From: Verrucomicrobiota bacterium
Lineage (GTDB): Bacteria; Verrucomicrobiota; Verrucomicrobiia; Limisphaerales; UBA1096
Assembly (NCBI GenBank): GCA_030747605.1
Contig: JASLKL010000009.1
Span: forward strand, 1 to 34,253
Direction: 5' to 3'
Length of the DNA stretch: 34,253 nucleotides
Shown here: piece by piece, positions 2,079 to 19,909 of the stretch
How positions within the stretch are numbered: position 1 is the first letter of the stretch
Layout: the number at the start of each line of letters is the position of its first letter
The notes under the pieces: generated by a model
Databases searched by the model: none
Seen by the model: the letters and a program-made list of their open reading frames with translations, nothing else
What the model was told of the DNA's origin: nothing
Translations under genes and position numbers: made by a program

Positions 2079-5000
2079 AACGCAGCTTGAATAATGGGTT
2101 GATAATTATCTTGGTTCTAATTGGTCTTGGCGGTTTTGTGTGTTTTGAAGTTAAAAAAAATCCAAATGGTAAGCCAACCTTAGTTCAAAGAACGGATCAA
2201 TCCTCAACCCCTGTTTCAGTTCGAAGTGAATTTGCAAGCAATTCGGATTTCAAGCTTAGAAAGTCTTCTCGAGTGGAGTCTGGTAGTTTAGTTAAAGCGA
2301 TTGATAAGGGTCAGAAGCTGCGGTTAAAATTGGCAGGCCGAGAACCTCTTGATTTTGCTTTTCGTGATTTCCCTCTTTTTACTCGAGATTATAAAACTTC
2401 AATTGGAAGAACTTCATTGCTCGATTCGAAAATCCGTGTGTTTGAAGGTCTGGCGGCAGGTCAGATTGGAGAAGTGCATAGAGCCTCGTTGGTTCTCGTT
2501 GGAGATTCTCTAGCAGGTATTATTACCATGGCTGATGGTTCATTAGTTGAATTACGGGGGACTGATAGACGGTCACTATTGGCATTAAATAGAGAGATTG
2601 GTCAGACAGAGTTGATATGTGTTAGCGATCCTCGGAACGGGCAGTCTCACACTATGTCTTTTGATTCGGAAATTGTATTGCCAGATTGGTCTTCGGCTTC
2701 ATCGGTCTCAATCGATCCAGTCGACGAGTTTACTATGTTGGCCAGTTCAGGCATCGATCCTGTAACTGGCGCGCAGACGTTAGTATTGAATGCTCCAGCT
2801 AATCCACCACGATATGAGGCTTCGTTGAAAGTGGCAACGACTATCGTGGTGCTCGATAAGTCAGCTACTGGTGTAAATACGAAAAATAATCTTACTAAAA
2901 TTACTAGTCAATATCTTGCATTGATGGCGAATGTAGCGGCGATTTATGAAAACCAGTTAGGCATTAGATTGTTGGTGCAAGAAATGATTCTGACACCTGA
3001 TTCTTCTGATTATGAAGACGTGCCGTACGATGATAATGGAGAAACTTTAAAAGAGTTTGCTAGCTGGATTCAGCGTTGGCGGCCGGAATCAACTTACGGT
3101 CAGTCGGCTGCGATTAGATTTGGTGCAGGTTTAAGCGGAGGCACCTTGGGGATTGCCTATTTAAATTCTATTCATACTAGAAATGGTGTTGGAGTTTTGA
3201 GAGCTGGGTTTGGCTGGGCGCTTCCAAGTCATGAAATGGGGCATATGTTTGGCTCAGATCATTCACTAGGAGGCGTTATGAATGCTCAATATAACAACTC
3301 TACTAGGACGTTTTTTAAAGATATCGAAGGGCAGCAAGTCACAGCGGCTAAACAAATCCACGGTCAATCAAGCAGCCGTTTAAGTGGTCCATCTATAATG
3401 CGTAATCCAGTCGAAATGCCATTTGCAAATGATGATGTTGTTTGGTGTGCTATGGGGGAGGAAATTAGGTGCAACATTCTGTCCAACGATATGAAGCAAG
3501 TTTATCGAGGGCAGAAAAATAATCTAACATTGGCAGAGGTTGGGCAAGTGACGCCTCGCTACGCAGGTTCGGTTTCTTTAGAGGATGAGTTTGTCGTTTT
3601 TAAGCCTTCGAGTGATTTCAAGGGGACTGCGTGGTTTAGTTACAGTGTGCAGGGTGATGCGGGAAGAGGATGGCTGCACAAGGGCGATGTGGCCGTTGTT
3701 GTAGGTGATCTCGGGAGTGATTTCTACGAGATGGATTTGGCAGTAGGGCAGGCTAAGACACTTAAATTACCTGGAGATGGTGTGATATCTCAGTTGCGAT
3801 TTCCAAAACAGGCCACAATGCATGAAAGCACTAGTGACTCTGGTGTCTATATTATACGAGTGAATGCAGATGCCGACGGCAGTGATAGGATTCAGTATAG
3901 GGCGGGGAATATACGGCAGACTTTAAAGATTAATTACATCAAATATTTGCCAGTAGCTGAGCCTGATCATTTTACCCTTAGTGCAGGTGAAACATTGCAT
4001 TTCAATCCATTAGTCAACGATTGGGCTGTAGGCTTGAGAGGTTCTTACAAGACCGAGCCAGTTATCGCTGTGGGAACTAGTGGTGAAGGAAAAATTGGAC
4101 AGGATTTTTTGCCTGATGGATTTAGATTGGTAAGTGCGCGATCCAAAGCCACAAGCATTGGAGCCTTAACTGTGCACCGATCTCCGATTGTGAGAAATGG
4201 CCGCCGTCGTAATGACCCCAATGGGTTGCTTAGTTTTAAGGCAAAGGAGAATGCCACAGGATCAGGTGTTGTCGAATACACGATTGAGGATGCTATTGGG
4301 CAACGTTCTAATGGTTTTATAACCATTAGCATATCAGGGCAGATAGATGTTTACCTGGATTCAAGAAGCTATGCTAGAGGCTGGGTTCCACATAGTGGTC
4401 AAAATGATGAAAAATGGACGCAAATCGAATTTAATGATGCTCGTTGGAAACGAGGTCGTAATGGAGCCGGTTATGAGCGCAGTTCCGGTTATCAGTCCCT
4501 GATTAGTTCCATGCTTAACTTTAGGGCGACAATGTATGACAAGAACGAGTCGCTTTATCTTCGATATTCATTTGATGTGGATCAATCTGCAGTGGTTGAT
4601 AAGTTAATGTTACGTATGAAATTTGATGATGGTTTTATTGCTTATCTAAATGGCAATCGAGTTGCCTCGGCTAATGCGCCGTTAAATGCTAGATGGAATT
4701 CTGGTGCAACTGCGTTGCATGATGATCAGTTGGCGCTTGAGTTTCAGTCGTTTGATATCTCGTCTCATAAGAATCACCTGCGTAATGGGAAAAATGTTTT
4801 ATCAATACATGGATTAAATTTTGGGACTACCAGCTCAGACATGCTAATTTTATCTGAGTTAGTTTATTCAATTGAAAAGGACTCAGAGTTGGTTATGCCG
4901 TTTTGCGATCCGCCCTCCGAGCGAACAGCTGAGTCGATCATGCTAAATGGGCGCCTTAGTAAGAGTAGCTCAAAGGTGGACGTTTATTTTGTTTGGGGCA

Positions 5001-6217
5001 AAGCCGATGGAGGACCTGAGAAGGACAACTGGGATCGACATGAGCAGATTAAGCCAAATATTGAGGGGGAATATCGTTATTTAGTTGATGGGTTACCTGC
5101 AGGAGAAGTCTTGTATTACAGACTTTATCTTAATGGAGTGAATGGTCTCATATGGTCGAAGGATACTCAAAAGACATCGACTTTAGCTAAAGGGGTCTTA
5201 GTGGCCAGGCCGGATGAGTTTAATATTTTAATGGATGAAGAGTTACACCTTGCTAATCTAGACGAAGGAGTTTTAGCAAATGATGTTAGTATTACTGAGG
5301 ATACTAATCCGATCCCATTGACTCAGCCATCACATGGAAACTTAATCTTTAATACTAATGGTTCGTTTTCTTATTTTCCGAAGAAAGGGTTTATTGGTGT
5401 AGATTACTTCCTCTATAGATTGGATGACGCTGCAAACACACATAATAGTGGAGCATTGCAAAAAACAATTGTGTCTGTTGGTGACGATTGGAGTTATTAC
5501 GATAAATCTACTGCCCCTAATCGAAATTGGCTGAATAATTCCTTTGACGATAGCGACTGGCCTCGTGGCCGAGGGTTGTTGGGGTATGGCAATGGTAACG
5601 AGGTTACAGAAATTAGCTTTGGGACTAACCCTGATCGAAAAAACGTAACTGCTTATTTTAGGCAAGCATTCCAAATTATTGATAAGGCACTTATTGACAA
5701 AGTAATTTTTAAACTTTTGAGAGATGATGCCGCCGCAATTTACTTGAATGGGAGGGAGATTTATCGAGATAAAAACTTATCCAAAACAGCTAGGCATACT
5801 ACTATGGCCTCGAGCTCAATTGTTGATGAAACAGCTTATGCTGTCTTTGAGCTGGACGGTAGTTTCTTGTCTGAAGGTAATAATGTAATTGCTGCAGAAG
5901 TGCATCAAGCTAGTCGCTCTAGCTCAGATTTGAGTTTTGCTCTTTTTGGTCAGGCTTATCTCATTTCTGGCAACCGAGTAACCATAAACGTTAATTCGAG
6001 TCAAAAAAATAGATTAAATTTAATCTATAACGTTACAGAAAATCAAATTGAGGTCAGTTTTTTGCCTAAAGCAGCAAAAAGCTATATTTTGGAGATTTCT
6101 GAAGATCTTATTAATTGGGATGAGATAAAAATAATTAATGGGAGTGATGGTAAATTGAAATTTATTAATAAAATCGATTTTACTGAGCAAACGCGTTTTT
6201 TCCGATTGAAGGAATAG
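2075..6217 (+). CDS. Large exported metzincin-type zinc metallopeptidase with cadherin-like and jelly-roll-like repeats
   Basis: A 1380-residue secreted or surface protein. Residues about 8-27 are one hydrophobic segment (signal peptide or anchor; no clear lipobox at C23). A probable propeptide follows, then a peptidase domain at about 245-450 with HEMGHMFGSDH, i.e. the metzincin signature HExxHxxGxxH with H386, E387, H390 and H396, and a candidate Met-turn (GGVMN) just after. Downstream are Ig/cadherin-like stretches: around 455 (DDVVWCAMGEEIRCNILSND) and around 1045-1125 (ARPDEFNILMDEEL...GVLANDVS...GSFSYFP). Two similar beta-rich domains, about 757-890 and 1137-1290, share W..FDD/FND..W..G...GYG and DD...YLNG. 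The C-terminus (SEDLINWDEI...FFRL) resembles a module frequent in exported verrucomicrobial proteins. The start overlaps rnr as ATGA, suggesting translational coupling. Substrate unknown. Confidence 0.8.
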   Translation: MKRSLNNGLIIILVLIGLGGFVCFEVKKNPNGKPTLVQRTDQSSTPVSVRSEFASNSDFKLRKSSRVESGSLVKAIDKGQKLRLKLAGREPLDFAFRDFPLFTRDYKTSIGRTSLLDSKIRVFEGLAAGQIGEVHRASLVLVGDSLAGIITMADGSLVELRGTDRRSLLALNREIGQTELICVSDPRNGQSHTMSFDSEIVLPDWSSASSVSIDPVDEFTMLASSGIDPVTGAQTLVLNAPANPPRYEASLKVATTIVVLDKSATGVNTKNNLTKITSQYLALMANVAAIYENQLGIRLLVQEMILTPDSSDYEDVPYDDNGETLKEFASWIQRWRPESTYGQSAAIRFGAGLSGGTLGIAYLNSIHTRNGVGVLRAGFGWALPSHEMGHMFGSDHSLGGVMNAQYNNSTRTFFKDIEGQQVTAAKQIHGQSSSRLSGPSIMRNPVEMPFANDDVVWCAMGEEIRCNILSNDMKQVYRGQKNNLTLAEVGQVTPRYAGSVSLEDEFVVFKPSSDFKGTAWFSYSVQGDAGRGWLHKGDVAVVVGDLGSDFYEMDLAVGQAKTLKLPGDGVISQLRFPKQATMHESTSDSGVYIIRVNADADGSDRIQYRAGNIRQTLKINYIKYLPVAEPDHFTLSAGETLHFNPLVNDWAVGLRGSYKTEPVIAVGTSGEGKIGQDFLPDGFRLVSARSKATSIGALTVHRSPIVRNGRRRNDPNGLLSFKAKENATGSGVVEYTIEDAIGQRSNGFITISISGQIDVYLDSRSYARGWVPHSGQNDEKWTQIEFNDARWKRGRNGAGYERSSGYQSLISSMLNFRATMYDKNESLYLRYSFDVDQSAVVDKLMLRMKFDDGFIAYLNGNRVASANAPLNARWNSGATALHDDQLALEFQSFDISSHKNHLRNGKNVLSIHGLNFGTTSSDMLILSELVYSIEKDSELVMPFCDPPSERTAESIMLNGRLSKSSSKVDVYFVWGKADGGPEKDNWDRHEQIKPNIEGEYRYLVDGLPAGEVLYYRLYLNGVNGLIWSKDTQKTSTLAKGVLVARPDEFNILMDEELHLANLDEGVLANDVSITEDTNPIPLTQPSHGNLIFNTNGSFSYFPKKGFIGVDYFLYRLDDAANTHNSGALQKTIVSVGDDWSYYDKSTAPNRNWLNNSFDDSDWPRGRGLLGYGNGNEVTEISFGTNPDRKNVTAYFRQAFQIIDKALIDKVIFKLLRDDAAAIYLNGREIYRDKNLSKTARHTTMASSSIVDETAYAVFELDGSFLSEGNNVIAAEVHQASRSSSDLSFALFGQAYLISGNRVTINVNSSQKNRLNLIYNVTENQIEVSFLPKAAKSYILEISEDLINWDEIKIINGSDGKLKFINKIDFTEQTRFFRLKE

Positions 6218-6270: not shown

Positions 6271-6288
6271 TTGTGAAATTTTTCACAA
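6271..6288. promoter_or_regulatory. Candidate Rex (redox-sensing repressor) operator upstream of nuoB
   Basis: The 18 bases TTGTGAAATTTTTCACAA form a perfect 7+4+7 dyad (8-base arms at 6270-6277 and 6282-6289). They differ at one central position from the classical Rex operator consensus TTGTGAAATATTTCACAA. The site lies 60 bases before the nuoB start, in the only sizeable gap before the respiratory operon. Rex is known to repress NADH dehydrogenase and other respiratory genes in several phyla when NADH is low. The sequence match is direct; binding by Rex here is inferred. No rex gene is in the window. Confidence 0.75.
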
Positions 6289-6333
6289 AATCGCTTTCAA
6301 GTAATCCAGTTGGGTTGTACTTTTGTGTTGGAG

Positions 6334-6348: not shown

Positions 6349-6876
6349 ATGAACGCAACTGAAATCGGTTATAATTCAAAAATCGAGGGTAATGTTGTAC
6401 ATACTCGCCTCGACAACGCTATCAGCTGGTTCAGGAAGAATTCAATTTGGCCAATGCCAATGGGGTTGGCATGTTGCGGGATTGAGCTGATGGCTGTTGG
6501 CGCTAGTCGCTATGATATTTCTAGATTTGGTTCGGAAGTAATGCGTTTTTCGCCACGTCAATCTGATGTGATGATCGTGGCCGGCACGGTAACTTATAAG
6601 ATGGCTATCGCAGTACGGCGTATTTATGAGCAGATGCCAGAACCGAAGTGGGTTATTGCCATGGGAGCATGTGCCTCGAGTGGAGGCATGTATCGCAGCT
6701 ATGCTACATTGCAAGGAGTAGATCGAATTTTACCAGTAGATGTTTATGTTAGCGGGTGCCCACCGCGTCCAGAGGCTCTACTTGAAGCATTAATGAAGCT
6801 GCAGGGTAAGATTTCAAAAGAGCCGCATATTAAAGATAAGAAACCGGCGCGAGATCGAGGTTTGGTCTTGTCTTGA
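6349..6876 (+). CDS. nuoB: NADH-quinone oxidoreductase subunit B
   Basis: Peripheral-arm subunit of complex I that carries iron-sulfur cluster N2, the last electron carrier before quinone. At 175 residues it is a normal family length. The four cluster ligands are present: the adjacent pair C42-C43 (LACCGIEL), C108 (MGACASSGG) and C137 ([11 protein letters not shown]). It is the first nuo gene here and follows the Rex-like operator; nuoA, which normally precedes it, is absent. The stop is seven bases before nuoC. Confidence 0.97.
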
Positions 6877-6883
6877 GATTTAA

Positions 6884-7459
6884 ATGACAGCTAAGCAACT
6901 AGCGAAAAAAATTCAACGTCAGTTCAAAGAGATGATATCCGATGCGATTGAGTTTCGAGGTGAGTTGACAGTTGAGGTTTTAGATGCAAATCAGATTTTG
7001 GAAGTTTGTCGTTATGCTAAAGAGCAATTAGATTTCGATTATCTAGTTGATTTATGTTCTATAGATAACGACGACGAGGCGCCTCGCTGGACTGTCGTCT
7101 ATCATATATATAGTTATAAATATTTTCAGCATCTCCGTTTGAAAGTTAGTGTCGGTGAGGAGGAATCCAAGCTTCCTTCGGTAACTTCAGTTTGGCGTGC
7201 AGCCAATTGGCATGAGCGTGAAGCGTTCGACATGATGGGAATAGATTTTGTTGGGCATCCGGATATGCGTCGTATTTTGATGTGGGAGGGTTATCCATAT
7301 CACCCTTTGAGGAAGGATTTCCCTCTGGCGGGTAAACCTAGTGAAATGCCGGATGTGGCTTTTACCGATCCTGTTCCGCTTGAAGGGGGTCCATTTGTTA
7401 CAACCCCAGGAAACAAAGATTCAGCAGGCAGGGAGCCTCGAGTGAGGAATCCAGAATAA
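6884..7459 (+). CDS. nuoC: NADH-quinone oxidoreductase subunit C
   Basis: The 30-kDa peripheral subunit of complex I, which docks beside NuoD and NuoB and binds no cofactor. The signature stretch ANWHEREAFDMMGIDFVGHP and the following MRRILMWEGYPYHPLRKDFPL are diagnostic. It is 191 residues long and separate from NuoD, unlike the fused NuoCD of enterobacteria. The C-terminus (about residues 150-191) is a short Pro/Gly-rich extension. It lies seven bases after nuoB and five before the nuoD start used here. Confidence 0.96.
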   Translation: MTAKQLAKKIQRQFKEMISDAIEFRGELTVEVLDANQILEVCRYAKEQLDFDYLVDLCSIDNDDEAPRWTVVYHIYSYKYFQHLRLKVSVGEEESKLPSVTSVWRAANWHEREAFDMMGIDFVGHPDMRRILMWEGYPYHPLRKDFPLAGKPSEMPDVAFTDPVPLEGGPFVTTPGNKDSAGREPRVRNPE

Positions 7460-7464
7460 TTATT

Positions 7465-8715
7465 TTGCCAGAAGTAAAGAACATAGAAGTTTCTGAATCT
7501 GCTATTCGTTCAGCTGAGGCTCTTGATGAATTGCAGGATCTGCAGGGGGAAAAGATGACCCTCAATATGGGGCCGTCTCATCCTGCTACACACGGTGTTT
7601 TGCGTTTGTCCTTAGAACTTGACGGAGAAATTATTTCTAAGGCTGATCCGGAAATTGGTTATCTTCATCGTGGCGATGAAAAGATTGCCGAGAATATGAC
7701 TTACAACCAATTTATTCCGTACACTGATAGGTTGGATTACCTTGCTCCTTTAGCGAATAATGTCGCTTATGCACTTGCGGTGGAGAAGTTGCTTGGTGTT
7801 GATAATGAACTTCCTGAGCGTTGTCAGTATATACGGGTAATATGTTGCGAGTTGGCCCGTGTATCTGCTCATTTGCTAGGGTTGGGGGCTTTTGCAATGG
7901 ATGTAGGAGCACTCACTGTTTTTCTGCATACTTTTAATGAGAGGGAAAAAGTTTACAATCTGATTGAAGCGCTTACCGGTGCTAGATTCACTACGACATA
8001 TACACGAATTGGAGGGCTTTCACGTGACTTGCCCGAGGGTTGGACTGATGAATTAAGTAAGTTTACCAAAGAGGTGAGCGAGGCAATTGAAGAAGCGGAC
8101 AAGCTGCTGACTCGTAACAAAATATTCATCGATCGCACTAAGGGTGTGGGCATTATAACGCGTGAGGAAGCGATCGACTTTGGGTTAACAGGCCCTAACC
8201 TTCGAGGAAGCAACATCGAGTATGATCTTCGTAAGGCTCATCCTTATTTAGTTTATGATCAATTAGATTTTGATATTCCTTATGGTGAGGTTGGTGATTG
8301 CTATGACCGATATCTGATTCGAATGGAAGAGATGCGGCAGAGTGTGCGAATTCTTGATCAATGCATTGCTAAATTGCCAAATGGACCAGTAAATTTAGAT
8401 GATGGGAAAATTGTTCTGCCGCATAAACAAAAAGTACTCTCTAGTATGGAGGAATTGATCCATCAATTTATGTTAGTAACTCAGGGGCAGAATGCTCCTG
8501 CTGGAGAAGTTTATTTTGGTGCCGAGAATCCAAAAGGAGAACTCGGGTTTTATATTTTTAGTAAAGGCGGCGGCGTGCCTCATCGCATGAAGATTCGTGC
8601 ACCTTCTTTTGTTAATCTAAGCATACTAAGTCATATGTTACCTGGTCATATGATGAGTGATATTGTTGCTATACTTGGTTCTCTTGATTTTGTGATGGGG
8701 GAATGTGATAGATGA
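7465..8715 (+). CDS. nuoD: NADH-quinone oxidoreductase subunit D
   Basis: The 49-kDa subunit of complex I, homologous to the large subunit of [NiFe] hydrogenases, which with NuoB forms the quinone-reducing site. Motifs include LNMGPSHPATHGVLRL, EIGYLHRGDEKIAE, YTDRLDYLAPL and the C-terminal SLDFVMGECDR. The GPSHPATHG loop carries the conserved quinone-site His. The start is uncertain: the TTG at 7465 gives a 30-residue leader and has no good Shine-Dalgarno site, while the ATG at 7555 is preceded by CAGGGGGAAAAG and would begin at MTLNMGP. NuoD proteins often carry short N-terminal leaders, so I keep the longer form. Its stop overlaps nuoE as ATGA. Confidence 0.95.
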   Translation: MPEVKNIEVSESAIRSAEALDELQDLQGEKMTLNMGPSHPATHGVLRLSLELDGEIISKADPEIGYLHRGDEKIAENMTYNQFIPYTDRLDYLAPLANNVAYALAVEKLLGVDNELPERCQYIRVICCELARVSAHLLGLGAFAMDVGALTVFLHTFNEREKVYNLIEALTGARFTTTYTRIGGLSRDLPEGWTDELSKFTKEVSEAIEEADKLLTRNKIFIDRTKGVGIITREEAIDFGLTGPNLRGSNIEYDLRKAHPYLVYDQLDFDIPYGEVGDCYDRYLIRMEEMRQSVRILDQCIAKLPNGPVNLDDGKIVLPHKQKVLSSMEELIHQFMLVTQGQNAPAGEVYFGAENPKGELGFYIFSKGGGVPHRMKIRAPSFVNLSILSHMLPGHMMSDIVAILGSLDFVMGECDR

Positions 8716-9200
8716 GCTTTGAAGCTTCCAAAACACTTGAGCGTGAGGTTGATAAGCTGGTGAAGAGCTATCCGCAAAAACGTAGTGCTTCCTTAATGGT
8801 GCTACATGCTATTCAAGAAGAGTTTGGTTATATTTCAAGGGATGCAGAGCTTTGGGCTGCAGAGAAATTGGATTTGAAACCTATAAATATTCATGAGCTT
8901 GTGACGTTTTATCCAATGCTTCGAGATCATGATCCTGGCAAAACTGTAGTGCGTGTGTGTCGAACCTTAAGTTGTGCCTTGGCGGGGAGTCATAAGTTGC
9001 ATGGCCATATCTGTGAAAAGCTGGGACTTGATAAAGGGGGGGAGGGGTTGCAGAGAACAAGAGATGGAAAGTTTGGGGTGGAATTTGCCGAGTGCCTAGC
9101 AAGTTGTGGAACTGGTCCCGTGATTATGTGTAATGATGATTTTTATGAGGGTGTCTCGAGTGAAGATGTAGAAAAGATTTTAAAGGAATACGACGGATGA
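8712..9200 (+). CDS. nuoE: NADH-quinone oxidoreductase subunit E (2Fe-2S, thioredoxin-like)
   Basis: The 24-kDa subunit of the NADH-oxidising module, a thioredoxin-like fold carrying [2Fe-2S] cluster N1a. All four ligands are visible in the usual spacing: C83 and C88 (VCRTLSC, C-x4-C) and C128 and C132 (ECLASC, C-x3-C). The helical N-terminal region includes LHAIQEEFGYIS, a family hallmark. It is 162 residues, a normal length, and starts by ATGA overlap with nuoD. Its stop is only three bases from the 3' CCA end of a tRNA gene on the other strand, which separates it from nuoF. Confidence 0.96.
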   Translation: MSFEASKTLEREVDKLVKSYPQKRSASLMVLHAIQEEFGYISRDAELWAAEKLDLKPINIHELVTFYPMLRDHDPGKTVVRVCRTLSCALAGSHKLHGHICEKLGLDKGGEGLQRTRDGKFGVEFAECLASCGTGPVIMCNDDFYEGVSSEDVEKILKEYDG

Positions 9201-9203
9201 AGA

Positions 9204-9277: not shown

Positions 9278-9290
9278 GAATGCGCTGCGC

Positions 9291-9320: not shown

Positions 9321-9331
9321 GGCGAAATCAG

Positions 9332-10735
9332 ATGCCTAGTGAATATAAACTTGTTTTGAAACACGTCGATAAGACGGGTTACACAAATGGTATAGAGTGT
9401 TACCAAAAGCATGGTGGCTATAAAACCATGAAGAAGGTTTTCAAAATCAAGGCTAAGAAAACCAAGGAGGGTGTAAGCACCCCTCAAGAAGTTATTCGCA
9501 AGGAAGTGCTTGTATCCGGATTAAGAGGGCGAGGTGGAGCAGGTTTTTCGGCTGGCATGAAATGGAGCTTTGTGAATCGTAATTCTGGTAAGCCGATCTA
9601 TCTGATATGTAATGCTGATGAATCTGAGCCAGGAACATTTAAAGATCGTCAGATTATATACAAGGATCCTCATCAGCTTATCGAAGGCATGGTGATTTCC
9701 TGTTATGCCAATGATGTTAATCTCGCTTATATCTATATTAGAGGCGAGTTCCCCGAAGGTGCAAAAATACTAAACCAAGCTATAAATGAAGCCCGTAAAG
9801 CTGGATATTTGGGTAAAGGGATTTGCGGGACTAAATTTAATTTGGATATTCATGTTCACCGAGGAGCTGGAGCTTATATTTGTGGTGAGGAAACCGGACT
9901 GATTGAGTCTTTGGAAGGTAAGCGTCCTTATCCACGTATTAAGCCACCTTACTTTCCGGCCGTGCTAGGTCTTTATATGTGTCCGACCATCGTTAATAAT
10001 GTGGAAACTCTATGTAATGTGCGGCATGTAATGGAAATGGGTGGTGAGGCTTATGCTGCTCTGGGTACCCCGGGTAATACGGGTACTAGAATTGTTAGCT
10101 TAAGCGGTCAGGTGAAGCGTCCAGGGTATTATGAAATTGAAGTAGGAAAAGCTACTTTAGGTGATTTGATTTTTGGTAGAGAATTTGGTCAGGGGATGCT
10201 TGACGGTCGCAAACTTCAGGCAATTATACCGGGTGGTTCATCTTCTAAAGTATTTCGTGAGGGAGAGTCTTTCAAAATTAAAACTAAAGACAAGGCAGGG
10301 AAAGACGTCGAAAAGAAAATTGATTTGTTAGAAATTCCTTACGATTTTGACACGTTGATGAAATGTGGGTCAATGTCCGGATCGAGTGCAATAATTGTAA
10401 TTGATGATTCCGTTGATATAGTTGAGGCACTCGGAAATTTATCGGATTTTTATGCGCATGAAAGTTGCGGGCAGTGCACACCGTGCCGCGAAGGTTCTTT
10501 ATGGATGTCAAAGGCGCTTAAACGGATGAGGAGTGGGCAAGCTCGTAAGGCAGATGCAGATTATTTGAAACACATTGCTCATAACATTCAAGGAAGGACG
10601 ATTTGTGCATTTGGTGAAGCCTGTGCTTGGCCTGTATTGAGTTTTGTAGATAAGTTCAGAGATAAATTTGAGGAACGTGGAGCTACGGATGAAGCCCGTT
10701 CTGCTAAGCAGGAAAACAAGGGAGGAGTGGATTAA
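9332..10735 (+). CDS. nuoF: NADH-quinone oxidoreductase subunit F (NADH- and FMN-binding)
   Basis: The 51-kDa subunit of complex I: it binds NADH and FMN and passes electrons to [4Fe-4S] cluster N3. The glycine-rich GLRGRGGAGFSAGMKW near residue 65 and GAGAYICGEETGLIESLEG form the nucleotide and flavin sites. N3 ligands are C379, C382, C385 (ESCGQCTPCREG) and C425 (TICAFGEAC). At 467 residues it is slightly longer than usual, with a Lys/Glu-rich end. The ATG at 9332 has only a weak Shine-Dalgarno match (AAGGCG). The 131-base gap before it holds the antisense tRNA-Gln, so nuoF onward may need read-through past the tRNA or a separate promoter. Confidence 0.97.
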   Translation: MPSEYKLVLKHVDKTGYTNGIECYQKHGGYKTMKKVFKIKAKKTKEGVSTPQEVIRKEVLVSGLRGRGGAGFSAGMKWSFVNRNSGKPIYLICNADESEPGTFKDRQIIYKDPHQLIEGMVISCYANDVNLAYIYIRGEFPEGAKILNQAINEARKAGYLGKGICGTKFNLDIHVHRGAGAYICGEETGLIESLEGKRPYPRIKPPYFPAVLGLYMCPTIVNNVETLCNVRHVMEMGGEAYAALGTPGNTGTRIVSLSGQVKRPGYYEIEVGKATLGDLIFGREFGQGMLDGRKLQAIIPGGSSSKVFREGESFKIKTKDKAGKDVEKKIDLLEIPYDFDTLMKCGSMSGSSAIIVIDDSVDIVEALGNLSDFYAHESCGQCTPCREGSLWMSKALKRMRSGQARKADADYLKHIAHNIQGRTICAFGEACAWPVLSFVDKFRDKFEERGATDEARSAKQENKGGVD

Positions 10736-10736
10736 T

Positions 10737-12428
10737 ATGGCAGCGAAGGATATATCTATTGAGACCGTTACTGTGAAAGTGGACGGTCGATCTGTTGAAG
10801 TGCCACGCATGATGCTCAACTGGGAAGGGAATCTAGAGCCGACCACGGTTTTGCAGGCATGCAAACTTGCAGGTATTGAGATCCCACATTATTGCTATCA
10901 TCCAAAATTGCCAGTTGTAGGCAATTGTCGCATGTGTCTGGTTCATGTTGGGTCACCAGGTCGTCCTGGTCCTGATGGCAAGTCTCCAGTAAATGAAGAT
11001 GGCACAACAAAAATTTTCCCAATGCAATTGCCGTATGAGCCTCAGACTCCCCGTGGGGTGATTGGATGTGCGACGACTATAGTGCCTGACATGGAGATTT
11101 ATGCCAGTAGCCCTGAGACAAAAGAGATGCGTGAGTCAGTTCTTGAGTCGTTACTTATTAACCATCCTTTAGACTGTTCGATTTGTGATCAGGCTGGTGA
11201 GTGCAAGTTGCAGGAGTATTCTTATGATCATGGTCAGGCCGAGAGTGGGTTTGAGGAGTTTAAAGTTCATAAGCCCAAGGCGGTGGATCTTGGGCCTCGA
11301 ATCACTCTTGATGCAGAGCGGTGCATTTTGTGCACTCGCTGTATTCGTTTTACCAAAGATATTGTAGGTGATGATGCCCTAGGGATAGTTAACCGTGGTG
11401 GCTATAATACAATTTCGACTTTTCCAGGTGAGTCATTTAATAATAATTACACGCTCAACACTGTTGATATATGCCCTGTTGGAGCACTGACATCTGACGA
11501 TTTTCGTTTTCAGATGCGTGTTTGGTTCCTTAAGGAAACCAAGAGCATATGCACTGATTGCGGTTCAGGTTGCAATGTGATGATAGGTTCAAGAGAAAAT
11601 AAAATGTATCGCTATGAGCCACGTCAAAATGATGCAGTTAATGGGCATTGGATGTGCGATTCTGGTCGATTAAATTATAAGTGGATTGGCAGAGAAGATC
11701 GTTTATCGAGTATTACAGATGTGAAAGGTAAAACTAGTTGGCCGATTGCGTTAAAGAATATTTCAGATCACTTGTCGAATGCTGATAAGGGCTCAGTAGC
11801 TATTGTTGCTTCTGCTCGTCAGACGAATGAGGAATTACATCTTCTGAGTAAGCTTGCAAAACACTTTGATGCCATCACGGATTCTATTCCAAGAAAAGGA
11901 AAGGCAGATCATCTTATGATGATTGAGGATCGCAATACCAATACGACAGGGGCTCAACTTATTGGTGTTACTAGCAAGCGAGTTGGTTCAAAGCTTTCAA
12001 TAATCAAAAAGGGAATTGAGTCCGGTAAAGTGAAGACTTTGATTGTTTTTGGTGAGGATGTAACGAAGCATGGTATAGATGCTAAATTGTTAGAGAAGGT
12101 TACATTGATCGTAAGCGATATATTACCTAACGAAACTACTAAGATTGCAGATTTTTTATTGCCTGGATGTGCTCATGCTGAAAAGAGAGGAACCTTTACA
12201 AATGTCAAAGGCCGAGTTCAAAAATTTATGAAAGCCTTGGAGCCGCCGGGTGATGCATTGTCGGAATGGGAGTTTTTACATGAGCTAGCGCATAATGTTA
12301 CAGGTCTAGATGGCTTTAAGACGATTGAGGGTTTGTTTAATCATATGGCGGGTGAAGTTAAGGCTTTCAAGGATGCTGAATTAACTTGGGCCAAATTAGG
12401 TGATCATGGTCTAGATGTGGAATTATAA
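10737..12428 (+). CDS. nuoG: NADH-quinone oxidoreductase subunit G (multi-cluster electron relay)
   Basis: The 75-kDa subunit of complex I, relaying electrons from N3 toward N2. Cluster ligands are visible: N1b by C53, C64, C67 and probably C111; N5 by H143, C147, C150, C156 (HPLDCSICDQAGEC); N4 by C196, C199, C202 and C246. A further C272, C275, C279, C307 fits C-x2-C-x3-C-x27-C, the motif of the extra cluster N7. A segment of about 30 extra residues lies between C67 and C111. The molybdopterin-oxidoreductase-like C-terminal part is short, giving 563 residues against roughly 700-900 in many species. The start is the ATG just after the nuoF stop, preceded by GGGAGGAG; an upstream in-frame ATG at 10668 would overlap nuoF and lacks such a site. 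Its TAA shares one base with the nuoH ATG. Confidence 0.95.
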   Translation: MAAKDISIETVTVKVDGRSVEVPRMMLNWEGNLEPTTVLQACKLAGIEIPHYCYHPKLPVVGNCRMCLVHVGSPGRPGPDGKSPVNEDGTTKIFPMQLPYEPQTPRGVIGCATTIVPDMEIYASSPETKEMRESVLESLLINHPLDCSICDQAGECKLQEYSYDHGQAESGFEEFKVHKPKAVDLGPRITLDAERCILCTRCIRFTKDIVGDDALGIVNRGGYNTISTFPGESFNNNYTLNTVDICPVGALTSDDFRFQMRVWFLKETKSICTDCGSGCNVMIGSRENKMYRYEPRQNDAVNGHWMCDSGRLNYKWIGREDRLSSITDVKGKTSWPIALKNISDHLSNADKGSVAIVASARQTNEELHLLSKLAKHFDAITDSIPRKGKADHLMMIEDRNTNTTGAQLIGVTSKRVGSKLSIIKKGIESGKVKTLIVFGEDVTKHGIDAKLLEKVTLIVSDILPNETTKIADFLLPGCAHAEKRGTFTNVKGRVQKFMKALEPPGDALSEWEFLHELAHNVTGLDGFKTIEGLFNHMAGEVKAFKDAELTWAKLGDHGLDVEL

Positions 12429-13576
12429 TGTTAAATTTTGTAACAGAAATTTTTTCCAGTTATCCATGGTTGATAGTATTGGTTAAGGTGTTGGGGGTTT
12501 TCGCTGTAATTATGCCAATGGTTGCCTATTCTGTAATGGCAGAGCGTCGTATTTCTGCATTAATACAGGATAGGATCGGCCCGAATCGTGTCGGCATTCC
12601 GTTTACAAGAGTTAAATTATTAGGTTTGGGGCAGCCGCTGGCTGACGGTTTGAAATCTTTTTTGAAAGAAGACTTTACGCCTGCTTATGTTAAGCGAATC
12701 TTTTTCTGGCTGGCTCCAGCTGTAGCAATGATCCCATCGTTTGTCGTCTTTGCTGTTATTCCGTTTGGCTCCTTCTTGGGAGCGCAAAAAATGGTGATTG
12801 CTGATTTAAACGTGGGAATATTGTTTACCTTCGGAATTGTATCGCTTGGGGTGTATGGAATCGTTTTGGCTGGATATGCATCCAATTCAAAGTATCCCTT
12901 TTTAGGAGGTATTCGTTCGAGTGCTCAAATGATATCCTATGAGATTGCTATGGGTATGGCAGTAGTTCCGGTTTTTATGCTTGCAGCTGATTCTGCATGG
13001 CAGAGTAATTTGACGGGCACATGGAAAGGATATTTGGACGGAGTTGGGTTATTAAATCTTTCGAGTGTGATTGCCTATCAGAGTGATAGTTTTTTTAGTT
13101 GGATGATCTTCAAACAGCCAATCGCCTTCTGTATCTTTTTGGTTGCGATTTTTGCAGAAACAAATCGATTACCATTTGACATGCCGGAGTCTGAAACAGA
13201 GTTAGTGGCGGGTTATAATACCGAATATAGCTCGATGCGGTTTGCTCTTTTTTTTATGGGTGAATATGCAGCTATGATCGCTGGGTCTGCTCTAATGGTA
13301 GTGTTATTTTGTGGTGGATGGACCTTGCCTCTTGGAGCGACTTTAGATCCTAATGGATATTTTAGCACCCCGGCTGACGGGATTATTCAGGGGGTTTTGC
13401 ATATGGTAGTGTTCATAATGAAGATCGCTGTGTTCTTAGTGTTGATGATCTGGATTCGTTGGATGTTGCCTCGTTTTAGGTACGACCAACTCATGAACAT
13501 TGGCTGGAAGCGATTTCTGCCTGTGAGCTTGGCAAATATTATACTGACAGCAATTGTTTTATGGGCGACTGCATAA
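12428..13576 (+). CDS. nuoH: NADH-quinone oxidoreductase subunit H
   Basis: Membrane subunit of complex I that joins the peripheral arm to the membrane arm and lines the quinone chamber. It has about eight or nine hydrophobic helices. Family signatures seen are ERRISALIQDRIGPNRVG near residue 40, GLGQPLADGLKSFLKEDF, SYEIAMGMAVVPV and FAETNRLPFDMPESETELVAGYNTEYS, the last being the charged loop at the quinone site. At 382 residues it is slightly longer than usual. It starts by a one-base TAATG overlap with nuoG and ends ten bases before nuoI. Confidence 0.97.
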   Translation: MLNFVTEIFSSYPWLIVLVKVLGVFAVIMPMVAYSVMAERRISALIQDRIGPNRVGIPFTRVKLLGLGQPLADGLKSFLKEDFTPAYVKRIFFWLAPAVAMIPSFVVFAVIPFGSFLGAQKMVIADLNVGILFTFGIVSLGVYGIVLAGYASNSKYPFLGGIRSSAQMISYEIAMGMAVVPVFMLAADSAWQSNLTGTWKGYLDGVGLLNLSSVIAYQSDSFFSWMIFKQPIAFCIFLVAIFAETNRLPFDMPESETELVAGYNTEYSSMRFALFFMGEYAAMIAGSALMVVLFCGGWTLPLGATLDPNGYFSTPADGIIQGVLHMVVFIMKIAVFLVLMIWIRWMLPRFRYDQLMNIGWKRFLPVSLANIILTAIVLWATA

Positions 13577-13586: not shown

Positions 13587-14201
13587 ATGAAAGTAGAACG
13601 TGCAAAATTAACATGGTTCGAGCGGCTTTATATTCCGTCAATATTGAATGGGTTCAAGGTGACCTTACGCCATTTTTTTTCATGGAAACGTTCAAAGGTT
13701 TATGGTGATAAACAGTCAAGCTACTCTGCAAAGTTGACCATGCAGTATCCTGAAGAGAAATGGCCTGTACCTGATGGTTATAGGGGGGCTCCATATCTAG
13801 TAAAAGATGAAGACGCAAATACCAAGTGTGTTTCTTGTCAGCTCTGCGAGTTTGTCTGCCCTCCTAAAGCCATTCGAATAACACCGCCTGGGCAGAGTGG
13901 GGAAGCAGATAGAGAGGGTGCGGAGAAGATGCCTAAGGAATTTGATATTAATATGCTCAGGTGTATCTACTGTGGTTTTTGTCAGGAAGTTTGCCCTGAG
14001 GAGGCGATATATTTACTTAAGGACTATGCAATTACTGGTGAAAATCGAGAAGAATTGATATTTAATAAGGAAAAGTTGCTTTCACTTGGAGGGGAAGACA
14101 AGCGTGCTTATGCGCATCATACACAGGATGGTGTGACTGAAGGTATTAAAAAATGGGAGAAAAAAACACAAGAAGCAAAAGATCAGCCTGCCTTTCACTA
14201 A
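13587..14201 (+). CDS. nuoI: NADH-quinone oxidoreductase subunit I (2x 4Fe-4S ferredoxin)
   Basis: Peripheral complex I subunit with [4Fe-4S] clusters N6a and N6b, which feed electrons to N2. Two ferredoxin motifs are intact: CVSCQLCEFVCPPKAI at about residue 81 and CIYCGFCQEVCPEEAI at about residue 129. The N-terminal amphipathic region (FKVTLRHFFSW) and RGAPYLV are normal for the family. It has 204 residues with a charged tail after the second motif. It lies ten bases after nuoH and eleven before nuoJ. Confidence 0.97.
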   Translation: MKVERAKLTWFERLYIPSILNGFKVTLRHFFSWKRSKVYGDKQSSYSAKLTMQYPEEKWPVPDGYRGAPYLVKDEDANTKCVSCQLCEFVCPPKAIRITPPGQSGEADREGAEKMPKEFDINMLRCIYCGFCQEVCPEEAIYLLKDYAITGENREELIFNKEKLLSLGGEDKRAYAHHTQDGVTEGIKKWEKKTQEAKDQPAFH

Positions 14202-14212: not shown

Positions 14213-14788
14213 ATGGAAACGATCTTGTTTAATCTATTTGCTGCCTTGGCAGTGCTGAGTGCATTGTTAGTAGTCGTGAACCCTTTGAGTCGTAATCCGG
14301 TCACTAGTGCGATGTTTCTTGTTACCACAATGATTTCCATTTCTGGGTTGTTTGTTTTGTTAAATGCCTACTTTCTGGCGGCTGTTCAAATTCTAGTTTA
14401 CGCAGGAGCAGTTATGGTTCTCTTCTTGTTTGTTATTATGTTGTTAGATGTGGAAGAAACTGCCCGTAGAAAGTTACGTGTAGTAAGTTTGACCATGGGA
14501 TTACTTTCAGTTGCTGCATTGTTTGGTGTATATAAAAGTTCACTTGAAACAACGTACGAAAAGGATTTAGGTAGTTTTGAAATAGATGGTTTTCGGTCAG
14601 AACATTTCGAATCAGTTAGTTCGATTGGAGAGAAAGAAAGTTTTGTTACTGTTGGTAGTACTCAGGCTCTGGGCCAAGAACTGTTTAGTAGTGTTAATGG
14701 TTTTATTTTGCCGTTTGAAATTGTCTCTATTCTTCTTCTTGTTGCAATGATAGGAGTGATATTGTTGAGTAAAAAAGAGTTAAAATGA
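14213..14788 (+). CDS. nuoJ: NADH-quinone oxidoreductase subunit J
   Basis: Small membrane-arm subunit of complex I with five predicted helices. The third helix contains [23 protein letters not shown], the diagnostic NuoJ stretch with its pi-bulge Tyr. Between helices four and five is a hydrophilic stretch of about 50 residues (residues 115-165), within the range seen in bacteria. The Shine-Dalgarno site is weak. Its stop overlaps nuoK as ATGA, so the two are probably translated together. Confidence 0.95.
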
Positions 14789-15093
14789 TTGAGCCGACAT
14801 TGAGTCATTATTTACTGGTAAGTGGAGCGCTATTTTCGATTGGCCTACTTGGGGTAATAGTACGTCGTAATCTTTTAATTATCTATATGTCCTTAGAATT
14901 AATGCTCAATTCAGCAAACGTAGCATTGGTGGCAATGTCTAGGTTCAATGGTAATTTGGATGGTCAGGTTATGGTTTTCTTTATTATCACAGTTGCTGCT
15001 GCTGAAGTTGCTGTGGGATTGGCATTGATTGTTGCTTTGTACCGAAAACGTCAAACCACTGAAGTGGAGGATTTGGCATCAATGAAATTATAA
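14785..15093 (+). CDS. nuoK: NADH-quinone oxidoreductase subunit K
   Basis: The smallest antiporter-related membrane subunit of complex I: 102 residues and three helices. It carries [29 protein letters not shown] with the conserved membrane Glu (SLELMLN), and [18 protein letters not shown] with the second conserved Glu. These acidic residues belong to the central hydrophilic axis used in proton pumping. ATGA overlap with nuoJ; one base separates its stop from the nuoL start. Confidence 0.97.
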
Positions 15094-15094
15094 T

Positions 15095-16903
15095 ATGGAA
15101 CTAGCTGCTTGGTTAATCCTTTTATTACCCCTGATATCTTCGGGCCTGATTGGTATTGGTGCTTTTCGTTCGAAGCCCGTGAGTGCCGGGTTTTCCATTG
15201 GCGCAGTAACGGGTTCCTTTTTGTTGTCATTGGTTATGGTTGCTAACGTAGAAACTTTACATACAAGTGTTAACTGGTTGGCAATTGAAGGTCTTAAATT
15301 TGATATTGGTTTGCAAATCGACACATTAAGTAAACTGATGCTTTGTGTTGTTACTGGAATAGGTAGTTTAATACATATCTTTTCGCTCGGTTACATGAAG
15401 GATGATAGAGATTTTTCTCGTTATTTCGGATTTCTGAGTTTGTTCATATTTTCAATGTTGGGAATTGTCTTAGCGGATAATTTTGTAATGATGTTTATTT
15501 TTTGGGAACTCGTAGGTGTTTCGAGTTATTTACTTATTGGCTTTTGGTTTGAAAAACCAAGCGCTGCTGATGCAGCTAAGAAAGCATTCCTCACAAATCG
15601 AGTAGGTGATTTTGGGTTCTTGATAGGGATACTAATGGTTTGGATGCTTTTTCAGACGGTTAGCTTTTCTGAATTACAGCTTAATGATCAAAAAGAAGGG
15701 GCTTTGATTCTTTCAGGCTTAGCAGGCTTTCTTATTTTTTGTGGTGCAATGGGTAAGTCAGCTCAGGCTCCTTTGCATGTTTGGTTGCCGGATGCTATGG
15801 AAGGCCCAACTCCAGTAAGTGCGCTAATACATGCAGCAACTATGGTTGCAGCTGGTGTATATATGTTGTGTCGTGTGTTTTTTCTTATTCAAGGCACATG
15901 GGCCATGGAGGTAATCGCTTGGATAGGTGGAGTGACGGCTTTGATGGCTGCTCTGATGGCAGTGCAGCAGGATGATATTAAACGGATCCTCGCCTATTCC
16001 ACACTGTCTCAACTGGGATATATGGTGATGGTGGTTGGTTTGGGAGGAGATCAAGATGATCACTATTTAATCACAGGAGTGGCAGGTACCGATGCCGCTA
16101 TGTTTCATTTAACTACTCATGCTTTTTTTAAAGCTATGTTATTTCTTGGAGCTGGTTCAGTTATTTATGCGTGTCATCACGAACAAGACATCTGGAAAAT
16201 GGGTGGGTTGCGTTTTCGAATGCCAAAAACATATTGGACATTTCTAATCGGCACATTGGCACTTTGTGGGGTTCCTTTATTTAGTGGCTTTTTTAGTAAG
16301 GAGGCAATTTTGGTTGTAGCTTTTAAAGAGAGTATGCCTCTTTTCTTAATTGCTGTTGTGGTTGCCGTATTAACTACTTTTTATATGACTCGATTGTTCA
16401 TTGTTGCTTTTACTGGAGATGCTCGATCGGAACATGCAATGCATGCGAAAGAGAGTCCGAATGTAATGACTCTTCCTCTTTTATTTCTTGCTGTGCCATC
16501 TGTATTTGCAGGTTACTTTAATATGCATGAACCAGATCCAATAATTCTTTTTGCATCTGTGATTGCAGTTGTGTTTGGAGCTCTAATGGCTAGAGCATTA
16601 TATCAGAATGTTGATAAAGACCCGCTCCCAGCAAAACTTGGTATTGTTGCTAAAGCGATGAATAAACGGTTTTGGTTTGATGAATTGTATCAATGGCTTA
16701 TTGAAAATGTGCAGGAGAACTTGGCTAGGATCGCAGATATTGCTGATCGTTGGATAATTTCCGGGTTATTGGTACGAGGCGTTCATGGTTCAACAGAACT
16801 GGCCGGACGCCTATTAAGATTGGCTCAAACAGGAAATTTGCAGACATATGCATTTTGGTTTACTGCGGGATTGGTTGCGGTACTGATTTTTGCATTAAGT
16901 TAG
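15095..16903 (+). CDS. nuoL: NADH-quinone oxidoreductase subunit L (antiporter-like)
   Basis: The most distal, Mrp-antiporter-like proton-pumping subunit of complex I, with many transmembrane helices over 602 residues. Characteristic stretches are FIFWELVGVSSYLLIGFW (conserved Glu), KAFLTNRVGDFGFLIG, GKSAQAPLHVWLPDAMEGPTPVSALIHAATMVAAGVYML and a long C-terminal region matching the lateral helix HL. Family membership is unmistakable from the 'NRVGD' and 'MEGPTPVSALIHAATMV' signatures. It sits one base after nuoK and six before nuoM. Confidence 0.97.
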   Translation: MELAAWLILLLPLISSGLIGIGAFRSKPVSAGFSIGAVTGSFLLSLVMVANVETLHTSVNWLAIEGLKFDIGLQIDTLSKLMLCVVTGIGSLIHIFSLGYMKDDRDFSRYFGFLSLFIFSMLGIVLADNFVMMFIFWELVGVSSYLLIGFWFEKPSAADAAKKAFLTNRVGDFGFLIGILMVWMLFQTVSFSELQLNDQKEGALILSGLAGFLIFCGAMGKSAQAPLHVWLPDAMEGPTPVSALIHAATMVAAGVYMLCRVFFLIQGTWAMEVIAWIGGVTALMAALMAVQQDDIKRILAYSTLSQLGYMVMVVGLGGDQDDHYLITGVAGTDAAMFHLTTHAFFKAMLFLGAGSVIYACHHEQDIWKMGGLRFRMPKTYWTFLIGTLALCGVPLFSGFFSKEAILVVAFKESMPLFLIAVVVAVLTTFYMTRLFIVAFTGDARSEHAMHAKESPNVMTLPLLFLAVPSVFAGYFNMHEPDPIILFASVIAVVFGALMARALYQNVDKDPLPAKLGIVAKAMNKRFWFDELYQWLIENVQENLARIADIADRWIISGLLVRGVHGSTELAGRLLRLAQTGNLQTYAFWFTAGLVAVLIFALS

Positions 16904-16909: not shown

Positions 16910-18424
16910 ATGAACTATCTCTTTTTCATAGTGATACTGCCATTACTGGCAAGTTTGGTTATTAGCTTCATTCCTGGAAGTCAGGTTAAAGCCATTCGCA
17001 ATGTAAGTTTAGGAGTGTCTGGCTTGTCCGCGATACTTTCATTGGTGGCCTTTTGCACTTTTCAAGTTGATGGTGGATTGCAATTTGAAACAAAGTGGGT
17101 TTGGGTTGAGAGTCTCGGGTTGAATTTCCATTTGGGTGCAGATGGAATCAACATTGGAATTATTTTTATGGGTGCAGTTGTGTCATTTGCTGCTGTGTGT
17201 TGCGCTGATGATATTACGTATAGATTTAAGGAATTTTATATTTTGCTGAACATTATGATAGGTGGTGTTCTTGGGGCATTCGCTTCAATGGATTTGTTTT
17301 TCTTTTATTTCTTCCACGAACTCGCCTTGGTGCCAACTTTTATAATGATAGGAGTCTGGGGCAGGGGACAGAACCGGAATTACGCTGCTTACAAAATTAC
17401 ATTGTATCTGAGTTTAGGGGCATTACTTGCCTTAATTGGTTTAATAGGTGTTTATGTTCAGGCAGGTGCTGACTCATTTAGCATTCCTGATTTGATCGCT
17501 AAGGTTAAGGCTCAGCCAATTAATGAGTCTGCACAGCAATGGATATTCCCTCTTTTAATGTTTGGTTTTGGAATTCTGGTTTCACTCTGGCCATTTCATA
17601 CTTGGGCTCCACTCGGTTACGGTACTGCCCCGACTGCGACGGCTATGTTACATGCGGGTGTCCTTAAAAAATTTGGACTATATGGTTTAATTCGTGTTGC
17701 TATACCTATGGCTCCAATTGGGGCTCAATTTTGGCTAGGTATTCTTGCATGGCTGGCATTAGCTAATCTGCTTTTCTGTGGTTTGGTGGCTGTAAGGCAA
17801 AGAGACTTAAACCTTTTAATTGGTAATTCAAGTGTTGCTCATATGGGTTTTATATTTTTGGGAATTGCTAGCCTGAATATCATAGGACTGACGGGTGCAG
17901 TCCTAGTCATGATTGCCCATGGATTACTGGCTGCATTAGCTTTTGGTGTGAGTGGGCATTTGTATCAGCAAAATGGTTCGCTTGATATGTCTCAGATGGG
18001 GGGATTACTTCGTAAAATGCCTTTGGCTGGGACTGCCTTGCTTATGGCAATGATGGCCGGGTGCGGGCTTCCGGGGTTTGCTAATTTTGCTGGAGAGATA
18101 ACTATCTTTTTTGCGGCTTGGTCTGCGGGGTTTAAAGTAATAACTGTCATTGCGGCTTGGAGTGCACTAGTGGTAGGTGGTTTATATATGCTCAGGGCCA
18201 TCCGCAATATTTTGCACGGTGCACAACCTGATGTTTGGAAAAAGACAAGAGATTCAAGCCCCTTGCCTACAACTGCATTCGGTTTGTTGTTGGCATTACT
18301 CTTAGTTTTTGGTTTCGCACCTGGTCTTCTGACCAAAGGGATCGAATTAGAAGTTAAAAAAATTGTGTATTTGGTTAAGCCTGAAATAAATGAGGCTAAG
18401 CAGTTGAGTGTAGTGGCAAAATGA
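16910..18424 (+). CDS. nuoM: NADH-quinone oxidoreductase subunit M (antiporter-like)
   Basis: Second antiporter-like proton-pumping subunit in the membrane arm, 504 residues and about 14 helices. Seen are FFHELALVPTFIMIGVWG with the conserved helix-5 Glu, FHTWAPLGYGTAPTATAMLHAGVLKKFGLYGLIR (the NuoM form of the proton-channel signature), and MGFIFLGIASLN. It is distinguished from NuoL by the GYGTAPTAxAMLHAGVLKK variant and the absence of the lateral-helix extension. Six bases separate its stop from nuoN. Confidence 0.97.
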   Translation: MNYLFFIVILPLLASLVISFIPGSQVKAIRNVSLGVSGLSAILSLVAFCTFQVDGGLQFETKWVWVESLGLNFHLGADGINIGIIFMGAVVSFAAVCCADDITYRFKEFYILLNIMIGGVLGAFASMDLFFFYFFHELALVPTFIMIGVWGRGQNRNYAAYKITLYLSLGALLALIGLIGVYVQAGADSFSIPDLIAKVKAQPINESAQQWIFPLLMFGFGILVSLWPFHTWAPLGYGTAPTATAMLHAGVLKKFGLYGLIRVAIPMAPIGAQFWLGILAWLALANLLFCGLVAVRQRDLNLLIGNSSVAHMGFIFLGIASLNIIGLTGAVLVMIAHGLLAALAFGVSGHLYQQNGSLDMSQMGGLLRKMPLAGTALLMAMMAGCGLPGFANFAGEITIFFAAWSAGFKVITVIAAWSALVVGGLYMLRAIRNILHGAQPDVWKKTRDSSPLPTTAFGLLLALLLVFGFAPGLLTKGIELEVKKIVYLVKPEINEAKQLSVVAK

Positions 18425-18430: not shown

Positions 18431-19909
18431 ATGAGTGAACAATTAAAATTTGTGCAGCTTGAAATGATGGTTGTAGCTCTGGGCTTAATTGTCTTGATTG
18501 CCGACCTAGTAATGCCTCCTTCAAAACGGCGTCTTATTGGGCATCTCTCTGCAGTAGCTCTTGGGCTGATTTTTCTTTTTAGTCTGCGTGATAGTTATGT
18601 TGGTTTAATAAACGAGAGTACAGACTTATTTTTTAACTCGCGTTATAAAATTGATGGTCTAGCTATATTTTTTAAGAGGTTCTTTATATTAGCAGCAATA
18701 TTCGTGTTAATATTCGCTGTGGATTTTGCAGACAGGATTCGATCTGGGATTTCAGAATACTATGCATTTATTATTTTTGCATTAGCGGGGATGATGTTTG
18801 CAGCTTCGGCGAACGATTTTAGTATGCTGTTTGTCTCAATCGAATTAATTACAGTTACATTTTACATTCTCGTTAGTTACCAACGACATCGATTGCAATC
18901 TCTTGAAGCTGGTGTAAAGTACTTGATCCTTGGCGCGGTTTCTTCTGCCTTTATGATATATGGAATTGCGCTTGTTTTTGGGGAGGCTGGAAGTTTGAAG
19001 TTTGAAGACATAAACGCCAAGCAGTCAGAATTACTTGGCAGTAAGGTGTTCCTTTTTGGCATGTTATTTTTATTTGCAGGATTGGCATTTAAGATTTCTG
19101 CGTTTCCATTCCAGGTTTGGGCGCCGGATGTTTATCAAGGGGCGCCTACCCCTACTACGGCGTTTTTGTCGCTTGGATCAAAAGCTGCAGGTTTTGTTCT
19201 TTTGATTAGGTTACTTGTTTTTACTATTCCTGATTTAACTCGGGAATGGACAGTTCTATTGATTGGCATTTCTGCTGTAACGATTCTTTATGGGAATCTT
19301 TGTGCATTGCCACAGCGTAACCTTAAGCGGCTTTTGGCATATTCGGGCATTGCAAATGCTGGATATTTGCTTATGGGCATTGTTGCCCAGTCTGAAGATG
19401 GTACAGCAGCAATTCTTTATTATTTAGCTGGTTACCTGTTTGCACTGATGACTGTATTTCTAATAATTAATTTAATTACTAAAGAGGGCGAAGGGGAGGA
19501 TATATCTTGTTTGGAAAACTTAAACAAACGTTCGCCTTTTCTTGCTGCTGCAATGACTTTAGCCGCAATCTCTCTAGCCGGCATACCTCCACTAGCAGGT
19601 TTTTTTGGTAAATTTTTATTGATTAAATCAGTTGCTGTTGAGGCCTTTGGTAACACTGGTTATTTTGTTTTACTCGCAGTAGCAGTCTTTGGTGTTGTGA
19701 TATCTATTTATTATTATTTTGGAATTGTTCGAGCAATTTTTTGGAATCATAAAGCCGATGATAAAACTCCTATTTTTGTTGTGGTCCCAATTCGTTTTGC
19801 ACTGATTTGTTGTTTTGCCGGAATGCTTTATCTCGGGCTGCTTCCAAATAAACCGATGAAGTGGGTTGAATCAGCAGCCGTTTCGTTAATTAAAACAACA
19901 GCAGAATGA
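18431..19909 (+). CDS. nuoN: NADH-quinone oxidoreductase subunit N (antiporter-like), last nuo gene
   Basis: Third antiporter-like membrane subunit of complex I, 492 residues. Signatures are FVSIELITVTFYILVSY, FKISAFPFQVWAPDVYQGAPTPTTAFLSLGSKAAGF (the NuoN-specific form with APDVYxGAPTP and SxxSKAA) and RNLKRLLAYSGIANAGYLLMG. It ends the operon. No GC-rich hairpin with a T-run follows, only AT-rich sequence, so the end of the transcript is not visible. Confidence 0.97.
   Translation: MSEQLKFVQLEMMVVALGLIVLIADLVMPPSKRRLIGHLSAVALGLIFLFSLRDSYVGLINESTDLFFNSRYKIDGLAIFFKRFFILAAIFVLIFAVDFADRIRSGISEYYAFIIFALAGMMFAASANDFSMLFVSIELITVTFYILVSYQRHRLQSLEAGVKYLILGAVSSAFMIYGIALVFGEAGSLKFEDINAKQSELLGSKVFLFGMLFLFAGLAFKISAFPFQVWAPDVYQGAPTPTTAFLSLGSKAAGFVLLIRLLVFTIPDLTREWTVLLIGISAVTILYGNLCALPQRNLKRLLAYSGIANAGYLLMGIVAQSEDGTAAILYYLAGYLFALMTVFLIINLITKEGEGEDISCLENLNKRSPFLAAAMTLAAISLAGIPPLAGFFGKFLLIKSVAVEAFGNTGYFVLLAVAVFGVVISIYYYFGIVRAIFWNHKADDKTPIFVVVPIRFALICCFAGMLYLGLLPNKPMKWVESAAVSLIKTTAE

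Follow-up and report, generated by a model that had tools for sequence, protein, structure and literature searches.

A putative Rex operator ahead of the complex I operon of a Verrucomicrobiota bacterium and a candidate respiratory Rex regulon in its order

An inverted repeat standing directly ahead of a nuo operon raises the questions of whether it is read by the redox sensor Rex, which other genes Rex would then control in the same genome, and in which direction. The window, by which we mean the whole stretch of 34,253 nucleotides that was analysed, carries at 6271-6288 the sequence TTGTGAAATTTTTCACAA, read directly and taken as a putative Rex operator. A sequence-only reading had reported this 18-mer with exactly these letters and at this position, 60 bases before nuoB, and counting the gap to the ATG at 6349 gave the same 60 bases. 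It had also described the element as a perfect dyad: the two arms of 8 bases each, TTGTGAAA and TTTCACAA, are fully complementary, but the central T/T pair (6279-6280) is unpaired and reading the minus strand changes 2 positions, so the description slightly overstated the symmetry. A match to the consensus at 17 of 18 positions was a small inaccuracy, as the Rex operator consensus TTGTGAANNNNTTCACAA specifies 14 positions and all 14 are matched. The features of this part of the window are as follows.

6271..6288, no strand assigned: candidate Rex operator TTGTGAAATTTTTCACAA, exact match to TTGTGAANNNNTTCACAA and conserved
6295..6300, plus strand: predicted -35 box TTTCAA, at a conserved offset from the operator, weak in the window
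6318..6323, plus strand: predicted -10 box TACTTT after a 17-nt spacer, from the alignment of relatives
6349..6876, plus strand: nuoB (Pfam Oxidored_q6)
6884..7459, plus strand: nuoC (Pfam Complex1_30kDa)
7465..8715, plus strand: nuoD (Pfam Complex1_49kDa)
8712..9200, plus strand: nuoE (Pfam 2Fe-2S_thioredx)
9332..10735, plus strand: nuoF, NADH-binding subunit (Pfam Complex1_51K)
10668..12428, plus strand: nuoG (Pfam Fer4_Nqo3, Molybdopterin)
12428..13576, plus strand: nuoH (NCBIfam NuoH models)
13587..14201, plus strand: nuoI (NCBIfam TIGR01971)
14213..14788, plus strand: nuoJ (NCBIfam NuoJ models)
14785..15093, plus strand: nuoK (NCBIfam NuoK)
15095..16903, plus strand: nuoL (NCBIfam NuoL)
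16910..18424, plus strand: nuoM (NCBIfam NDH_I_M)
18431..19909, plus strand: nuoN (NCBIfam NDH_I_N)

Pfam and NCBIfam profiles thus delimit a nuoB-C-D-E-F-G-H-I-J-K-L-M-N operon at 6349-19909, whose NuoB is closest, among named sequences, to that of Pedosphaera MAGs (83% identity). Immediately upstream of the operator lies a gene (2075-6217) for a 1380-residue protein with an M12-type metallopeptidase and Ig/cadherin-like domains. The operon contains no nuoA. The only nuoA of the assembly (G000:C285:8838-9128) lies inside a second complex I cluster on another contig (G000:C285:1-9438, locus L358), comprising nuoA-B-C-D and H-J-K-L-M-N, with subunits named by sequence and position. Neither nuoE nor nuoF was recognised anywhere on that contig, and no Rex site was found at its nuo cluster; since this cluster has no recognisable nuoE or nuoF and no operator either, the operator marks the complex with the subunits that oxidise NADH. 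Relatives have a second nuoA that is unlinked to nuoB-N, for example adjoining a phosphoglucomutase-like gene, again without the operator. We considered and rejected the possibility that Rex controls the second cluster or the unlinked nuoA, as none of 21 nuoA loci had a site at fewer than 2 mismatches and the sole 2-mismatch site near a nuoA (L362) had no counterpart in related loci.

Of the checks that had been proposed for the Rex reading, three concern genome sequence, namely a rex gene in the genome, further copies of the 18-mer, and conservation of the region upstream of nuoB in relatives. The assembly (G000; 2.53 Mb in 294 contigs, 74% complete) contains a single rex gene, on contig C253 (L001:1033-1665), whose product matches PF06971 with 66.8 bits and the NCBIfam Rex model with 247 bits (cut-off 126). 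The protein aligns to Rex structures of the PDB with an E-value of 2e-44, and its match to the Thermus and Thermotoga proteins (3IKV, 5ZZ5, 7WB3) extends over the full length of about 200 residues. DNA contacts described for Thermotoga Rex include Arg12, Ser33, Lys43, Gln46, Arg48, Lys49, Arg60, Gly61 and Tyr64 (PMC8836258); in the alignment to 3IKV and 5ZZ5 these winged-helix contact residues are retained, and the nucleotide-binding motif GxGNLG, of the GxGxxG NAD(H) type, is present. Locus L014 (3652-6629) has a PSCyt2/PSD1 (DUF1549/DUF1553) gene followed 2 nt downstream by rex on the same strand.

Exact sites occur 3 times in the assembly, against 0 for a control with the reversed pattern. 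Besides the site of the window, one is on contig C14, where about 50 nt separate it from a downstream multihaem cytochrome c gene. Genes for a 1226-residue iron-sulphur protein and an NrfD-type membrane protein come next; from the gene order this is probably an alternative complex III operon, and its first gene is called actA here. The other lies on contig C99 between the divergent genes ctaA (COX15-CtaA, haem A synthase) and gdh (glutamate dehydrogenase), so that both additional copies stand beside respiratory genes. We did not assign gdh as a Rex target because the operator-plus-promoter layout described below is found on the ctaA side only, the gdh start is up to about 150 nt from the shared intergenic site, and another conserved element lies closer to gdh. 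On contig C16 a site with one mismatch falls within the terminal part of a coding frame, ahead of a frame that resembles aldo/keto reductases. Sites with up to 2 mismatches were not enriched (20, versus 23 for the reversed control).

These counts bear on the simplest alternative, a chance palindrome without function. Under a first-order Markov model built from the dinucleotide statistics of the window, the expectation is about 0.0004 exact sites for the window and about 0.03 (0.029) for the 2.53 Mb assembly, versus the 3 observed, each beside respiratory genes. As the position is moreover conserved across dozens of families, coincidence is refuted by conservation and keeps a negligible probability.

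Within the genus, all 21 genomes carry 1-3 exact sites, 39 in total, whereas the reversed control gave 0. By position, 15 precede nuoB, 4 actA and 15 lie at ctaA/gdh, together 34 of the 39, with 5 in other places. One genus site precedes a multihaem cytochrome gene (G007, L048), and in G010 (L052:3001-6018) a gap of 61 nt separates an exact site from a downstream cytochrome c gene whose product has four matched haem domains; a molybdopterin oxidoreductase gene comes next. PF06971 detects rex in 17 of the 21 genomes, and the 4 without it are 61-76% complete.

Across 116 genomes of the order, rex was detected in 79, and TTGTGA-N6-TCACAA occurred 159 times versus 9 for the control. In 99 of these genomes we counted mismatches to the site in the region ahead of the best nuoB, which gave a bimodal distribution with 71 loci at 0-2 mismatches and the others at 3-6, as in controls. 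A site before nuoB was found in 65 of 68 rex-positive genomes versus 6 of 31 without a detected rex (Fisher p 1e-14), and after collapsing to families in 37 of 39 rex-positive versus 4 of 17 rex-negative ones (p 1e-7). In families f51 and f34, rex-negative members have no site whereas the rex-positive G107 and G124 do, a contrast within families which makes shared descent alone an uneasy explanation of the association. Exceptions run in both directions: 6 rex-negative genomes retain the site, five of them 66-90% complete but one (G049) 96% complete, and in 3 rex-positive genomes the site is missing before the nuoB examined. G053, which belongs to the small group of rex-positive genomes lacking the usual nuoB operator, has rex head-to-head with a second-type nuoB (C22:7117-8378). 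Among named genomes, the site is present upstream of nuoB in Pedosphaera, other Verrucomicrobiia MAGs and Roseibacillus, and no site was found upstream of nuoB in the Opitutales loci or in most Chthoniobacterales loci. Ahead of nuoB the site is thus conserved throughout the genus and in most of the order, and its presence follows that of rex. With the rex gene and the further sites, this conservation lends support to the earlier proposal that a Rex operator governs nuo, as far as genome comparison can carry it.

We also read 20 sites from other families of the order that do not precede nuoB. Nine of them, from several families, directly precede a gene for a secreted protein, some 240 residues long and with no assigned function (L308, L310, L311, L312, L318, L320, L323, L325 and L326), with ctaA next in two inspected cases; 4 precede the gene for the ATP synthase a subunit (one identified by Pfam, three by sequence), 1 lies directly before ctaA, and the others are unassigned. 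The members of the putative regulon would thus be nuoB-N, the alternative complex III operon and ctaA, joined in other families of the order by the ATP synthase operon. Since the site stands before several respiratory genes and co-occurs with rex, respiration in these bacteria is very probably governed by redox control of a known type.

TGTGA-N6-TCACA is also the consensus of CRP. Because the core of the site is identical to it, a reading by an activator of the CRP/FNR family called for a test. Such a reader would suit the location of the site upstream of the -35 box (see below), which CRP promoters share along with the core, and in Shewanella CRP is reported to control NADH dehydrogenase genes (PMC12210985). 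The CRP-type helix-turn-helix domain (PF13545), however, had no match in G000, G010, G015 and G017, four genus genomes that all carry sites and the last three of which are 90-93% complete. Across the order, 48 genomes had a strong PF13545 match and 25 of them carried the site; among the 51 that had no such match, 46 carried it. The relation with rex runs the other way. We rejected CRP as the reader on this absence from the tested genus genomes and on the negative association, and consider it very improbable.

The direction of control depends on the promoter. When nuoB loci were aligned on the operator, an offset of 23-26 nt from its start gave the best -35/-10 pair in 69 of 82 loci, and in relatives this pair reads TTGCCT or TTGACG, 17 nt, TAGNTT. 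The operator ends 5-8 nt upstream of the conserved -35 box without overlapping it, with a spacing that varies by 3-4 nt. The same layout is found at actA (TTGCCG-N17-TAAACT), at ctaA and at the ctaA-type operons of other families; atpB differs. In the window the corresponding pair, TTTCAA and TACTTT, is a weak match, and a simple sigma-70 consensus scan of the window reported no promoter, so the promoter assignment there rests on the alignment. Judged by the predicted -10 box, transcription of nuoB would begin near 6330, which would put the operator at about -59 to -42.

This geometry, with the operator upstream of the -35 box, is compatible with either sign of control, and simple repressors less often bind in that position. 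NAD+-bound Rex could instead act as an activator that aids RNA polymerase where the -35 box is weak (TTGCCT), in which case the respiratory genes would be on at low NADH and turned down when NADH accumulates in the absence of oxygen. The layout without overlap at nuoB, actA, ctaA and the ctaA-type operons fits such a role and differs from Streptomyces avermitilis, where the nuoA1 and atpI operators overlap the -35 box and the Rex footprint at nuoA1 covers -42 to -16 (PMC5355995). On the other side, the spacing is variable and atpB departs from the pattern, a footprint reaching 4-5 nt past the 18-mer would touch the -35 box and could repress sterically, and the characterised Rex proteins are repressors (PMC5355995, PMC8836258). 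A literature search for Rex as an activator returned nothing useful. We regard activation as unlikely and prefer repression, given both the precedent of characterised Rex proteins and a footprint that would extend to the -35 box.

Under the repression that we prefer, NAD+-bound Rex would occupy about -59 to -42 when NAD+ is plentiful, abutting the -35 box and lowering transcription. A build-up of NADH would release Rex from the DNA, nuo would be expressed and its product would reoxidise NADH, closing a negative feedback loop. We infer the binding, the NADH response and the repressive sign of Rex at this locus. That the 18-mer is a site of the organism's own Rex, part of a small respiratory regulon repressed by NAD+-bound Rex and relieved by NADH, is in our judgement probable, at roughly 0.78 from the sequence comparisons.

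Another point that weighs against this reading lies in the sensor itself. In Thermus Rex, the partner of Asp188 is Arg16' when NAD+ is bound and Tyr98' when NADH is bound (PMC6125430). The equivalent of Asp188 is Asn in all 27 Rex proteins that we read from the order (17 from the genus, 10 others), whereas the equivalents of Arg16 and Tyr98 are kept in the same 27, and Asp188 is kept in 7 Rex proteins from the phylum outside the order, 4 of them from the same class. Rex of this order therefore shares with the Thermus and Thermotoga proteins the DNA contacts, GxGNLG and the first two switch residues but has the third replaced, leaving the Thermus-type switch incomplete. Thermotoga Rex for its part lacks the switch Arg (PMC6125430), which indicates that the complete Thermus switch is not a strict requirement of the Rex family. 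The replacement of Asp188 by Asn may nonetheless mean that the NADH response differs. Taken together with the upstream operators, it allows the speculative and fairly unlikely view that the Rex of the order is a re-tuned sensor, with an altered response to NADH/NAD+ or with the aerobic chain under its activation.

The Rex regulon of S. avermitilis comprises nuoA1-N1, atp, cydA1B1CD and rex-hemAC1DB, and control of nuo and atp by Rex is proven there (PMC5355995). The order shares with it the operator consensus, Rex and the complex I target, and in other families also ATP synthase. Unlike in S. avermitilis, we saw no cyd or rex-hem site, the alternative complex III and haem A synthase are included instead, the operator stands ahead of the -35 box and does not overlap it, and Rex has Asn for Asp188. 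The ATTT core of the 18-mer is also compatible with the Staphylococcus aureus operator TTGTGAAW4TTCACAA, every specified position of which is identical in the window site (PMC2883068); the targets in S. aureus are anaerobically induced genes, whereas those found here are aerobic respiratory genes.

Our literature search found no described Rex regulon for Verrucomicrobiota. The comparisons above give good support for adding a putative respiratory Rex regulon in this phylum to those known from actinobacteria. They supply a regulator, an operator and targets, and hence a testable redox circuit, for an uncultured lineage within a common phylum. With Asp188 replaced throughout and the operators retained, the order as a whole would offer a natural test of the Rex switch.
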